Source: Hyphomicrobiales bacterium
GTDB lineage: Bacteria; Pseudomonadota; Alphaproteobacteria; Rhizobiales; Rhizobiaceae
DNA length: 64,000 bases
Reading direction: 5' to 3'
NCBI GenBank assembly: GCA_900470195.1
Contig: UEIJ01000005.1
Coordinates: 62,001-126,000, forward strand
Both the position numbers and the translations under genes were made by a program. Of this stretch, positions 14,289 to 25,035 are shown piece after piece (within the stretch, counting starts at the first letter, position 1; each line of letters opens with the position of its first letter). Below the pieces are notes generated by a model. That model was given only the letters and a program-made list of their open reading frames with translations, did no database searches and was not told the DNA's origin.

Positions 14289-14336
14289 TGGCGCACCCGA
14301 CAGGATTCGAACCTGTGACCTCTGCCTTCGGAGGGC
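14289..14336. repeat. attL: chromosomal 3' end of tRNA-Arg(CCG)
   Basis: The first 48 bases match the 3' half of the tRNA-Arg at 24988-25035 with three differences. The last 20 bases (14317-14336, from GACCTC through GGAGGGC) are identical at both ends, cover the anticodon stem-loop and probably contain the crossover. After 14336 the tRNA sequence stops, so this copy is the displaced original 3' end. Confidence 0.9.
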
Positions 14337-14466
14337 CATTCCGGCACCTTTCATGATATTTCCAGAAAATTTATTTAGTGGGATAGTCTATTTATATTCA
14401 ATGACTTATCGGCTTTTCGTAACATTCTCATGTTTACCGGCATCTTCCCTGATTTCATTTTTTATG

Positions 14467-14484
14467 GTGACACTGTGGTGACAC
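14467..14484. promoter_or_regulatory. left arm-type recombinase sites (two GTGACAC repeats)
   Basis: GTGACAC occurs at 14467-14473 and 14478-14484, exactly 11 bases apart, just upstream of the integrase start. The same pair with the same spacing occurs beside the right attachment site (24922 and 24933). Placement and spacing fit binding sites for the integrase arm-binding domain or an excisionase. Confidence 0.6.
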
Positions 14485-14506
14485 AAGCGAAAAGGGCAGC
14501 GGTTCC

Positions 14507-15739
14507 ATGCCGAAGATTACGAAGTCTATTCTTGATGCGGCTGAGCTAAAAGACAAGCCGTACTTCAAATGGTGCAGTGAGCTACCCGGCTTCGGAGTGC
14601 GGATATTCCCGAACGGCAAAAAGACGTTCTATGTCGATTACTATAATCAGAAGACCCGCGAGCGGAAGCGCATGTCCATTGGCGGCTTCGGAAAGCTCAC
14701 CGTCGATGAGGCCCGGAAGATGGCCCGTATCACTCTGGGCGATACTCTGCGGGGCGAAGACCCACTTCTGGAGCGAAAGACCCGGCGCGGATCACTCACC
14801 GTCTCTGACCTATGCGACGACTATTTGAAAGCTGCAAGGCAAGGATTGATAATCGGTCGCTCTGGCAAGGCAAAGAAATCTTCGACGCTCGAAACGGATG
14901 CAGGACGGATCGAACGGCACATTAAGCCACTGCTTGGCAAGAAGCTGGTTATCGACCTCGAGCGCTCCGACATTGCGAAATTCATTAGTAACATTACCGC
15001 AGGCAAAACGGCCTATGTAGGCAAGTCAGAGCGGTTACGCGGCAAGATAGTGGTAGCAGGCGGCGCAGGCACAGCAGCGCGCACAACGGGGCTTCTAGGC
15101 GGTATTCTGTCATATGCCGTTTCGCAGGGCGTCATAAAACATAATCCGGCCCATGGGGTGAAGCGGCCTGCCGATCAGAAACGCGAGCGGCGGCTAACAG
15201 CGGACGAGTTCAAGGCGTTGGGAAAGGCCCTGTCAGAAGCCGATCATATTCCATGGCAGGCAATTGTCGGAATAAAGCTGCTCGCATTTACCGGATGCAG
15301 ATTGAGCGAAATCGTCAAGCTCACATGGAATGAAGTCGATATTAGCGGCCATTGTATTCGCCTGGGCGATTCTAAAACTGGCGCTTCTATCAGGCCACTT
15401 GGAAAGCCAGCTATAGATTTGATCAAAAGCATTATGCTAGAAAAGCCAGCGGGATTCGTTCTCCCCGGCGTCCGTGAGCCTGCAAAGCCCTATGGCTCAT
15501 TGGACAGAGCTATTGACCGGATCACAAAACTAGCGAAACTCGAAGGCGTCACGGCCCACACATTGCGTCACAGCTTCGCATCCGTCGCCGCGGACCTGAA
15601 TTATTCTGACAACACGATTGGCGCTATTCTCGGCCATGCCGGAAGCGGAATAACCAGCCGGTATACTCACAGACTGGACAGCGTGCTGATTGCGGCAGCG
15701 GACAGGATTGCGGAAGAAATCAAACGGCTGATGGCTTGA
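14507..15739 (+). CDS. tyrosine integrase, P4-like
   Basis: A 410-residue site-specific recombinase with an N-terminal DUF4102/arm-binding domain (about 1-85), a SAM-like core-binding domain and a C-terminal catalytic domain. The catalytic residues are all visible: Arg265 (TGCRLSE), Lys290 (SKTG), His351 and Arg354 (HTLRHS), His377 (LGHAG) and Tyr386 (SRYTH). P4-type integrases typically use tRNA 3' ends, which matches the tRNA-Arg site. The gene reads away from attL, and its stop directly abuts the stop of the convergent RHH gene. Confidence 0.96.
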   Translation: MPKITKSILDAAELKDKPYFKWCSELPGFGVRIFPNGKKTFYVDYYNQKTRERKRMSIGGFGKLTVDEARKMARITLGDTLRGEDPLLERKTRRGSLTVSDLCDDYLKAARQGLIIGRSGKAKKSSTLETDAGRIERHIKPLLGKKLVIDLERSDIAKFISNITAGKTAYVGKSERLRGKIVVAGGAGTAARTTGLLGGILSYAVSQGVIKHNPAHGVKRPADQKRERRLTADEFKALGKALSEADHIPWQAIVGIKLLAFTGCRLSEIVKLTWNEVDISGHCIRLGDSKTGASIRPLGKPAIDLIKSIMLEKPAGFVLPGVREPAKPYGSLDRAIDRITKLAKLEGVTAHTLRHSFASVAADLNYSDNTIGAILGHAGSGITSRYTHRLDSVLIAAADRIAEEIKRLMA

Positions 15740-16135
15740 TTATTCAGAAACATCTTCCAATGAGAAAGCCAAACGGCGCATATCTGGGCGCTTTAGTTCG
15801 ACAGTGAATTTTCGCGCATTAGCATCGTAGCTGGTTACAATTGTTTCAATATTAGTCGAGTGATCAGCGACATAATCGCGGAGTTCTTCGATTAGCGCGT
15901 TGCGCTTAACGATGTCCCATCCGTCCTTATAAAATTGTTGCATCCACGCTGCCATAAACTCACCAAACGACACCGGCTCTGGGTATTTTTCTTCAAGCGT
16001 TGCAACGATTTCAGCATTCAAAGAACGTTCGTTCTTCTTTGCGGCTGCTTCCACCCGCAATTTTAGCGCAGGCTGCATTCTCAAACCGAATGGCGCGATC
16101 GCTGCTTGGGGAATTTTTTTATCCGATGTGTTCAT
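15740..16135 (-). CDS. ribbon-helix-helix (Arc-type) regulator, minus strand
   Basis: A 131-residue protein with an Arc-like RHH domain near the N-terminus (PFGLRMQPALKLRVEAAAKKNERSLNAEIVATLE, within residues 15-50) and a C-terminal extension of unknown fold. It is paralogous to the RHH protein transcribed the other way from 16222; they share the PFGLRM-P-LK and RS-NAEIV patterns. The divergent arrangement over shared repeats resembles a two-repressor switch such as P22 Arc/Mnt. A TTG at 16150 is an alternative start, but the ATG at 16135 leaves the operator-like repeat outside the gene. Confidence 0.82.
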   Translation of the reverse strand: MNTSDKKIPQAAIAPFGLRMQPALKLRVEAAAKKNERSLNAEIVATLEEKYPEPVSFGEFMAAWMQQFYKDGWDIVKRNALIEELRDYVADHSTNIETIVTSYDANARKFTVELKRPDMRRLAFSLEDVSE

Positions 16136-23637: not shown

Positions 23638-24723
23638 ATGCTCGGATGGATTAAAAGCATATTCACCGGCAGCGAAGTGGAAACGCGCTCTAGCGGTGCC
23701 GGTTATACCGCACAGATTATGGCCGCACGTGAAAGCTATATCTCCGGCGTGTCCGGCCTTGGTGAATTAACTGGGGCCGTGCAAACGTCAATTTCGCTTT
23801 GGGAAGGTGCTCTAGCGGCGGCAGACGTGCAAGGGACGGATTTCATCACCCGACGCACGATGGCGATTACTGCCCGATCTCTGGCCCTTCGTGGCGAAGC
23901 GGTATTCCTTATTCGTAACGATGGCCTATTGCCTTGTGCTGACTGGGATTTATCGACCCGTCACGGCGAGCCGCGCGCCTATCGTGTTTCTGTTTCGGAA
24001 GCTGGCGGCGGCTATACTCAGACCGTCCTTGCCGGTGAAGTCCTGCATTTCAGAATAGGTGCCGATCAGGTGGCACCGTGGACCGGCACAGCGCCCTTGA
24101 GACGCGCACCGATTAGCGCACAGCTATTGCATGAGGTCGAAAGCGCCTTGCGTGATGTTTATCGTGATGCGCCTCTCGGCTCGATGATCCTTCCCCTACC
24201 TGATAGTCAGTCCGGCGACATGGACGACATGCGCGGAGCTTTCCGTGGCCGTCGCGGTGCAACCTTGGTTGTCGAAGGCGTGGCACAGGCAACGGCGGCG
24301 GGCATGAACCCACAGCTTGGTCAGAAGCCGGATGCGCTATCGCCCGATCTCTCCAAGAGCATGACGGCGGAAACGCTGGAAGCGGCAAGGGACGGAATAT
24401 ACGCGGCCTATGGCGTGCTTCCCGGCCTTCATAATCGTGCGACGACCGGCCCCATGGTCCGCGAAGCACAGCGCCACCTTGCACAATGGACGCTCCAGCC
24501 GATTGCCCTGCTTATGTCGGAGGAAGCCAGCCAGAAGCTCGGCGGTGACATATTCATCGACGTGATGCGACCTGTCCAAGCCTATGACGTTGGCGGCAGA
24601 GCAAGGGCGCTATCGGCAATCGTCACTGCAATCGCACAGGCGAAGGAACAGGGGCTTTCCCCGGCAGAGTTCGATTTCGCGGCCAAACTGGTCAACTGGG
24701 GGGAAAACGACAAGGCGGCATAA
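23638..24723 (+). CDS. phage portal protein, HK97 family
   Basis: A 361-residue portal, the dodecameric ring at the unique capsid vertex. Family signs are the N-terminal WIKSIFTGSEVETRS, HFRIGADQVAPWTGTAPLRRAPISA, SDMRGAFRGRRGATLVV-like central turns and the C-terminal VREAQRHLAQWTLQPIALLM. It starts directly after the protease stop and is the last gene of the element. Length is near the low end for the family but no motif seems missing. Normally the portal is first in the head module. Confidence 0.9.
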   Translation: MLGWIKSIFTGSEVETRSSGAGYTAQIMAARESYISGVSGLGELTGAVQTSISLWEGALAAADVQGTDFITRRTMAITARSLALRGEAVFLIRNDGLLPCADWDLSTRHGEPRAYRVSVSEAGGGYTQTVLAGEVLHFRIGADQVAPWTGTAPLRRAPISAQLLHEVESALRDVYRDAPLGSMILPLPDSQSGDMDDMRGAFRGRRGATLVVEGVAQATAAGMNPQLGQKPDALSPDLSKSMTAETLEAARDGIYAAYGVLPGLHNRATTGPMVREAQRHLAQWTLQPIALLMSEEASQKLGGDIFIDVMRPVQAYDVGGRARALSAIVTAIAQAKEQGLSPAEFDFAAKLVNWGENDKAA

Positions 24724-24897
24724 GTTCCGGTAGGATGCACCGTGCGGGCTTCCCTTCACTCACCGCAAAAGCATCCCGTTTAGACGGCGAGTACGAAAAC
24801 CCCGTCAGCGCGCAGCCCTTTTTGATTGATTTGGGGGCGTGGCGTGCCGGGGGGAGGCTTACTCCTATGAGTTTCCCCCCACTTTCTGGGCCTTTTT

Positions 24898-24939
24898 GTG
24901 TCACTATTACCGCGCTCTGTGGTGACACTTACGTGACAC
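24898..24939. promoter_or_regulatory. right arm-type recombinase sites (GTGACAC repeats)
   Basis: GTGTCAC (inverted) at 24898-24904 and direct GTGACAC at 24922-24928 and 24933-24939. The direct pair has the same 11-base spacing as the pair beside attL. They lie 50-90 bases from attR, as arm sites should. Confidence 0.6.
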
Positions 24940-24987
24940 AGGGCTTGATAGATAGAGCGAGATTATCATCTAAGTTATTGAATTTAT

Positions 24988-25035
24988 TGGCGCACCCGGC
25001 AGGATTTGAACCTGCGACCTCTGCCTTCGGAGGGC
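24988..25035. repeat. attR within tRNA-Arg(CCG)
   Basis: Right copy of the 48-bp attachment repeat. It supplies the 3' half of the intact tRNA gene. The three differences from attL lie in the T arm and acceptor side, so this segment came from the element. Confidence 0.9.

Follow-up and report, generated by a model that had tools for sequence, protein, structure and literature searches.

A head-encoding but tail-less element in a tRNA-Arg gene belongs to an alphaproteobacterial family of probable capsid-forming phage satellites

How can a small integrated element that encodes a phage head, and the machinery to fill it, be mobile if it carries no recognisable genes for a tail? This question is raised by a 10,747-bp element (positions 14289-25035) inserted into a tRNA-Arg gene in the 64,000-nucleotide stretch of contig UEIJ01000005.1 (assembly GCA_900470195.1, a Hyphomicrobiales bacterium) that we analyzed here and to which we refer as the window. 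The initial annotation of this DNA had read the element as a capsid-forming phage satellite. Our data support this reading, as we found an entire family of elements with the same layout, no tailed relative, and a resident prophage with a closely matching head-closure protein, Hc1. The element is hence very probably a satellite that would fill a small head of its own and borrow the tail of a siphophage via an Hc1 protein matched to this tail.

The genes for the adaptor Ad1, Hc1, the large terminase TerL, an HNH endonuclease, the capsid, the prohead protease and the portal follow each other in the order that had been claimed, and all named genes are present (Table 1). Equally in line with the initial annotation, neither tail nor lysis nor small-terminase genes were recognized in the element with Pfam and PHROGs profiles, apart from the HNH protein, which also matches phrog_4581, a family named 'terminase small subunit' (E 8.5e-11), in an alignment running over its HNH part. 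The same scans recognized no size-redirecting gene. The distance of 265 bp from the end of the portal gene to the right attachment site (attR) had been given correctly. Every reading frame was said to be open and to overlap its neighbor; the frames are indeed open, but gaps at 18953-19048 and 19924-20005 contradict the claim of continuous overlap.

An element devoid of recognizable tail and lysis genes could be a decaying prophage that has lost them, and its relatives are informative in this respect. The same integrase-to-portal block without tail genes, for which a search in other genomes had been suggested, recurs at 79 genome loci detected with TerL in a set of 84,980 species, each represented by a single genome. 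Rhodobacterales make up the majority of the hosts, with marine representatives such as a Ruegeria pomeroyi strain, which harbors L144; the others include some Hyphomicrobiales, Reyranella, a Salinisphaera and a Pusillimonas. In IMG/VR, tblastn confirmed 196 candidates found with TerL, 21 found with the capsid and 515 found with a capsid profile; the best 80 of the 196, all 21, and the best 80 of the 515 were examined. A portal match (E<=0.001) was obtained in 13 of 397 genomes drawn from the order, ten of these matches being strong, with the window's own genome included, and a plasmid record of Pseudorhodobacter turbinis contains a TerL that is 74% identical. Within the window's own genus, a TerL search of 34 other genomes did not recover the element; the best TerL there was 29% identical, and such remote matches reside in ordinary-looking prophages, a distribution that speaks against a decaying prophage.

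Fifty-eight elements, of which 57 are distinct since L195 and L224 represent a single contig, could be delimited by tRNA repeats of 13 isotypes, with some boundaries resting on short repeats of 14-16 bp, and some IMG/VR and genome rows possibly being the same element. Their size is strikingly uniform: 57 of the 58 measure 9,414-11,750 bp and one measures 6,627 bp (median of all, 10,376.5 bp). Profiles and gene calls identified integrase, HNH and capsid genes in all 58, and protease, Ad1, TerL and portal genes in 57 each, while Hc1 of one of two modeled types (phrog_25 and phrog_161) was found in 35. The order TerL-HNH-capsid-protease-portal is kept across the family, and the connector genes change position. 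The non-core genes that could be recognized serve replication, excision and control, with primases in some relatives. The exceptionally small member (L192, 7549-14175), situated between tRNA-Leu repeats and without protease and portal genes, may be a deletion derivative, and perhaps even a satellite of a satellite.

The initial annotation had named two findings that would point to a remnant, the first being that the block forms the left part of larger, tailed prophages. Of the genome loci, 55 are longer than 15 kb, and in 42 of these tRNA repeats delimit the element, which measures 9.4-11.1 kb in 41 cases and 6.6 kb in the remaining one. In the other 13, gene lengths revealed no tail operon, four of their proteins being checked with profiles; a 1094-aa gene in L207 proved by such a check to encode a type I restriction enzyme. 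In IMG/VR, 149 of 153 contigs are no longer than 15 kb. The two that exceed all others in length, at 23.7 and 25.9 kb, have the same gene-length strings as L136 and L160, two bounded elements flanked by host DNA. On an 18.5-kb contig, the large additional gene in the part examined encodes a primase. A larger, tail-bearing prophage with this head was consequently not found among the 55 long loci and the 153 contigs. The second such finding would have been pseudogene versions in most strains. All five head genes are full-length and open in 49 of the 55 long loci; the six with short, split or missing head genes (L146, L176, L191, L192, L195 and L207) are what a decaying prophage would lead one to expect, and they constitute a minority.

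The head genes of the family are under purifying selection, with dN/dS values of 0.03-0.29 in 24 head-gene comparisons from six close pairs and of 0.13-0.47 in four comparisons of Ad1; two comparisons of the window with relatives, being near saturation, were excluded from these counts. Given this selection, a tail-less layout and size that are the same in 57 of the 58 bounded elements at 13 tRNA isotypes, and the lack of any tail-bearing relative seen, we reject a remnant prophage as an explanation and regard it as very improbable. Individual copies do decay: split or missing head genes occur in a minority that includes L195/L224, L191 and L207.

Is the element instead a particle domesticated by its host, such as a gene transfer agent (GTA)? 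Ad1 weakly matches the adaptor Rcc01688 of the gene transfer agent RcGTA (E 7e-4), and the structure models of capsid and portal match GTA parts as well. GTAs keep their tail and a host-fixed locus. Contrary to this, the element possesses an integrase, attachment (att) sites, replication genes and iteron-like repeats, and the tRNA sites used by the family differ between hosts. A TerL tree was built from 54 elements, leaving out L224 and three elements having no TerL gene call above 400 aa; on it, the isotype of the tRNA switches no fewer than 35 times and the side of the integrase ten times. We thus consider a domesticated particle to be highly improbable. Three of the 153 contigs have ends as would be expected of circular or concatemeric DNA: L059 and L127, both about 10 kb, show circular permutation, and a repeat of 123 bp is found at the ends of L126. 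L127 (10.1 kb) combines the head block with a D5-type primase-helicase, and no integrase-sized gene was called in it; it is possibly a non-integrating satellite.

If the element is a satellite, where would its tail come from? A resident siphophage whose connectors resemble those of the element had been proposed, and such a prophage is indeed present on contig C49 of the same genome. It is of the HK97 type, with consecutive genes for capsid, Ad1, Hc1, tail completion protein, tail terminator, major tail protein, tape measure and tail fiber, and its Hc1 is 60% identical over 108 aa to that of the satellite. The remaining proteins are far more distant (Ad1 23%, TerL 21%, protease 30%, HNH 32%), and neither the capsid nor the portal matches significantly. 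In a comparison with 42 other places listed in 35 same-genus genomes, the Hc1 proteins of C49 and of genome G003 tie as best match (62%). There is no sign of a recent exchange of DNA between the two hc1 genes of satellite and C49 prophage, which are 58% identical in nucleotides. The ends of the C49 prophage could not be set since no att repeat of at least 14 bp was found at its tRNA-Arg(TCT).

The prophage in G003 (L310) is a sister of the C49 prophage and proved instructive. Their listed tail genes are 86-100% identical (major tail protein 99%, tail terminator 98%, tape measure 89%), and their Hc1 proteins are 91% identical; in contrast, portal (26%), protease (29%) and TerL (22%) differ, and capsid and Ad1 do not match at all. 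As the two prophages share tail and Hc1 despite different heads, Hc1 was inherited with the tail and not with the head. A second carrier, Puniceibacterium antarcticum, offers a similar picture: its satellite L199 and a phage contig of the same genome (L396), which encodes capsid, Ad1, Hc1, tail completion protein, terminator, major tail protein and beyond, match in Hc1 only (52%). The comparison of what we call type-A Hc1 proteins comprised 17 rows, with L235 dropped and the row of G443 mis-read on the wrong strand. For all but three of the 16 readable rows, the window's own being among the exceptions, the Hc1 of L396 is the best non-satellite match, and among the type-A rows it is satellite L199, from L396's own genome, that scores highest against it. 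Because C49 and L310 share Hc1 together with the tail, and because in two carriers satellite and resident phage resemble each other closely in no other protein, Hc1 is the protein that appears to match head and tail. We infer that Ad1 faces the satellite's own portal, and that Hc1 faces the borrowed tail.

The connectors of the family fall into two sets, an Ad1 termed 'conn' with a phrog_25 Hc1 (19 elements) and an Ad1 termed 'c7' with a phrog_161 Hc1 (16 elements), without a single cross among the 35 elements in which both proteins were typed. On the same 54-element TerL tree, the connector set changes five times, at least four of these changes being forced by starred branches, in comparison with 18 changes when labels are shuffled; the set is therefore clustered, yet it has been exchanged. 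In phage records, Hc1 proteins of the phrog_161 type are closest to those of Pseudomonas M6-like phages (38%), and the phrog_25-type proteins of Rhodobacterales to those of Paracoccus phages (43%). The tails of GTAs as borrowed tails in Rhodobacterales found no support, since the second PF05521 protein in most of these genomes, presumably the GTA stopper, is about 22-33% identical to the satellite Hc1 (at least 60 aa aligned). A second siphoprophage in the window's own genome (contig C38 of G000, about 30-47 kb) has an Hc1 with a non-significant identity of 30% to that of the satellite. In the same-genus genome G015 (contigs C1, C2, C6 and C7), the same TerL match occurs at four places and the same Hc1 match at five, pointing to a multi-copy prophage or phage-like element.

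Several observations weigh against a satellite that docks onto its helper in this manner. A resident phage with a matching Hc1 accompanies only two of the 17 type-A satellite rows and none of the 16 phrog_161-type genomes, where the single phrog_161 match lies, by position, inside the satellite. Helpers are therefore usually non-resident, or the match is looser than assumed, and a resident helper as a general rule has to be rejected. In 23 of the 58 elements, neither of the two modeled Hc1 types was found; one of these, L182, has another Hc1. The comparison of L396 with L199 is partial, as the portal/terminase side is absent from the L396 contig. A weak tail match could hide in the PHROG scan of 62 larger non-core family proteins, in which 61 PHROGs were matched and 25 shown, and one of 59 small family proteins matches a PHROG called 'tail fiber'. 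Lastly, the Pfam and PHROGs scans yielded no small terminase beyond the phrog_4581 match of the HNH protein, and these fast-diverging proteins could be missed by them. No candidate cluster is common to the 58 elements, and a cluster of 164-166-aa proteins in four elements was dismissed, being replication-like in the one member scanned. Recognition of the DNA to be packaged is therefore left unexplained.

These points lend some weight to a variant in which the element makes its own head but accepts a tail from whichever phage fits, often a non-resident one, so that a resident match would reflect a shared tail type and no fixed partnership. Most of the examined carriers are without a resident phage bearing a matching Hc1. 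Capsid-forming phage-inducible chromosomal islands (cf-PICIs) are reported to pair with diverse phage tails (PMC13345588), and, as a review describes it, the 17 prophages of a cf-PICI strain gave no detectable mobilization (PMC11389934), an observation that at the same time counts against a resident helper here. The variant does not readily account for the resident Hc1 of C49 being tied for the best match, and we regard it as rather unlikely.

A satellite with a tail-matched Hc1 lends itself to a straightforward scheme. Upon infection by a helper siphophage, or upon its induction, the element would excise and then replicate from its initiator gene, in which five GTGAACGGAAC repeats are probable origin iterons. 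About 10-11 kb of DNA would be packaged into the element's own small head, which would be closed by an Hc1 fitting the tail of the helper and would subsequently accept such a tail. The element would finally exit by helper lysis. Such packaging and transfer are predicted from the sequence, and the resident C49 prophage, or a phage of the same tail type, is the best helper candidate.

The flanks of the element are in keeping with integration into the tRNA-Arg gene. Its ends had been called exact; this needs correction, as the flanking repeats (14290-14336 and 24989-25035) are 47 bp long with three mismatches and are identical in their last 20 bp only (GACCTCTGCCTTCGGAGGGC). Over 49 bp, the left copy agrees at every position with the tRNA region in five of ten aligned same-genus loci. 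It is therefore the displaced original 3' end of the host's tRNA-Arg gene, and the intact gene consequently carries a 3' end derived from the element. In one of the ten loci, L372, 198 bp of the left flank continue directly into the right flank; this is the empty site.

Table 1. Features of the element and of its integration site (positions refer to the window)
Feature	Position	Strand	Evidence
attL, displaced host 3' end of tRNA-Arg	14289..14336		47-bp repeat with 3 mismatches; 5 of 10 same-genus loci
Tyrosine integrase, 410 aa	14507..15739	+	PF00589 (E 2.5e-21), Arm-DNA-bind_3; phrog_1 integrase
Arc/ribbon-helix-helix regulator	15740..16150	-	Arc-like PHROGs; PF03869 slightly below cut-off
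Second Arc/ribbon-helix-helix regulator (start assigned in this analysis)	16222..16455	+	PF03869 (E 1.4e-6)
81-aa open reading frame, no assigned function	16424..16669	+	no profile match
77-aa open reading frame, excisionase/AlpA-type helix-turn-helix look by eye only	16669..16902	+	no profile match; homologue in L223
422-aa protein of the PHROG family named 'DNA topoisomerase'	16899..18167	+	phrog_6247 (E 6e-22)
DnaD/lambda-O-like replication initiator, 261 aa	18167..18952	+	phrog_186, phrog_270, phrog_678
Five GTGAACGGAAC direct repeats, iteron-like, inside the initiator gene	18510..18601	+	5 versus 0.07 expected; 0 of 100 shuffles
Head-tail adaptor Ad1, portal-side connector, 180 aa	19049..19591	+	phrog_442 (E 6e-15); RcGTA adaptor Rcc01688 (E 7e-4)
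Head-closure protein Hc1, tail-side connector, 111 aa	19588..19923	+	PF05521 (E 6e-15), phrog_25; 60% to C49 prophage Hc1
Large terminase TerL, 503 aa	20006..21517	+	phrog_9 (E 2e-60); PF03354, PF20441
HNH endonuclease, 112 aa	21508..21846	+	PF01844 (E 2.5e-8); phrog_144
Major capsid protein, HK97 fold with N-terminal helical domain	21839..23086	+	PF05065 (E 1e-18); model pLDDT 71
Prohead serine protease (S78)	23086..23637	+	PF04586 (E 7e-22); phrog_80
Portal protein	23638..24723	+	PF04860 (E 1e-11); low-confidence model, pLDDT 67
tRNA-Arg(CCG) including attR 24989-25035, 3' end element-derived	24988..25064	-	tRNA call, repeat, same-genus alignment

Other members of the family occupy further sites. 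Mameliella sp. MMSF_3455 harbors two different members, L156 at tRNA-Thr and L204 at tRNA-Leu. L178 does not adjoin a tRNA; it is next to genes for a phosphoglycerate dehydrogenase and a HAD-type hydrolase (serine pathway, by Pfam), possibly an alternative integration site, and gene lengths place L130, L150, L163 and L191 in a similar neighborhood. L131 and L153, which like L178 belong to the 13 long loci without a tRNA-bounded repeat, have a tmRNA gene at their end or close to it, possibly a further non-tRNA target. L135 and L137, also among these 13, contain a longer repeat of tRNA letters. A cysteine-rich protein of 135-296 aa, zinc-finger-like by eye, is encoded 3' of the portal gene in L183 (15330-15917) and eight other elements and could be cargo or a regulator.

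The head proteins of the element are remote from those of known phages. In a comparison set of 50,697 phage records, 120 are matched by TerL, with 26-27% identity in the 30 listed, and 39 by the capsid, with 24-30% identity in the 15 listed, none of which aligns across more than 80% of the capsid length. The portal has no match at E 1e-5 in this set. Hc1 is considerably closer, with 47% identity to that of Rhizobium phage 16-3 and 44% to that of a Mesorhizobium phage. The modeled capsid resembles HK97-fold shells, GTA parts among them, and has a long N-terminal helical domain; the low-confidence portal model matches portals including those of HK97 and of GTAs. Sequence searches of the PDB with Hc1 and portal gave nothing useful. 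Outside the head module, the 422-aa phrog_6247 protein, which we take to be TOPRIM-like, has remote matches in 56 phage records.

What initially looked like one oddity has become a uniform satellite family in many alphaproteobacteria, present in IMG/VR as short viral contigs. It renders the question which protein sets the match between head and tail a testable one, and if this protein is Hc1, helper phages could become predictable from sequence. We consider it an even call that the family constitutes a satellite lineage centered on alphaproteobacteria whose origin is independent of the E. coli cf-PICIs, which would package without a small terminase of its own, with a size of about 10.4 kb set by its head, and which would combine a constant head with an exchanged connector set in which Hc1 serves as the docking key that chooses the tail. 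A survey of Rhodobacteraceae describes two peaks in prophage length, of which the one at 10-15 kb is the taller, and reports 22 of the putative prophages to be GTAs (PMC8224337). The satellite family could explain part of the remaining 10-15-kb prophages, and some of the small Rhodobacteraceae prophages classed as 'low-quality' may be complete satellites of this family.

In the literature searched, we found no description of such elements in Alphaproteobacteria, which is no proof of their absence; cf-PICIs, for their part, are stated to be 'widely distributed across Bacteria' (PMC10690885). Several known systems invite comparison. RcGTA resembles the element in its HK97-type head, its occurrence in alphaproteobacteria and the weak homology of the adaptors. 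It has a tail of its own and no integrase, and it packages host DNA. Classical phage-inducible chromosomal islands (PICIs) and P4-like satellites are small, integrating and helper-dependent, as is the element, but they use or remodel the capsids of their helpers; an identity with these satellites, which have no capsid gene of their own, is rejected because the element encodes its capsid. The resident siphoprophage on C49 differs from the element by its complete tail module. The Streptomyces satellites MulchRoom and MiniFlayer share head and packaging genes and helper-phage dependence with the element; as they are described, direct terminal repeats, virulent helpers and actinobacterial hosts set them apart (PMC10690885).

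The closest likeness is to the cf-PICIs. As described (PMC10690885), these carry genes for capsid, protease, portal, connectors, both terminase subunits and an HNH endonuclease, and need tails only. Like EcCIEDL933 and EcCI2 of E. coli, the element has its own capsid, protease and portal, which are found in 57-58 of the 58 family elements, its own head-tail connectors (Ad1, phrog_442; Hc1, PF05521), TerL and HNH endonuclease, together with an integrase, att sites and no recognized tail genes. The signature genes of cf-PICIs are reported to include alpA and Pri-Rep (PMC10448857). Here the element departs from them: in place of Pri-Rep it has the phrog_6247 and DnaD/O-like proteins, and an AlpA is without profile support, the 77-aa frame at 16669-16902 being AlpA-like by eye only. 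Nor was a small terminase recognized in it, the phrog_4581 match of the HNH protein aside. No cf-PICI chain in the PDB was matched by sequence with the family capsid profile, and the capsid of EcCI2 (9gyi), at rank 40 and 10% identity, has the HK97 fold in common with the capsid model of the element. Strict membership among the cf-PICIs is thus unproven; from what its genes reveal, the best reading is that the element works like one.

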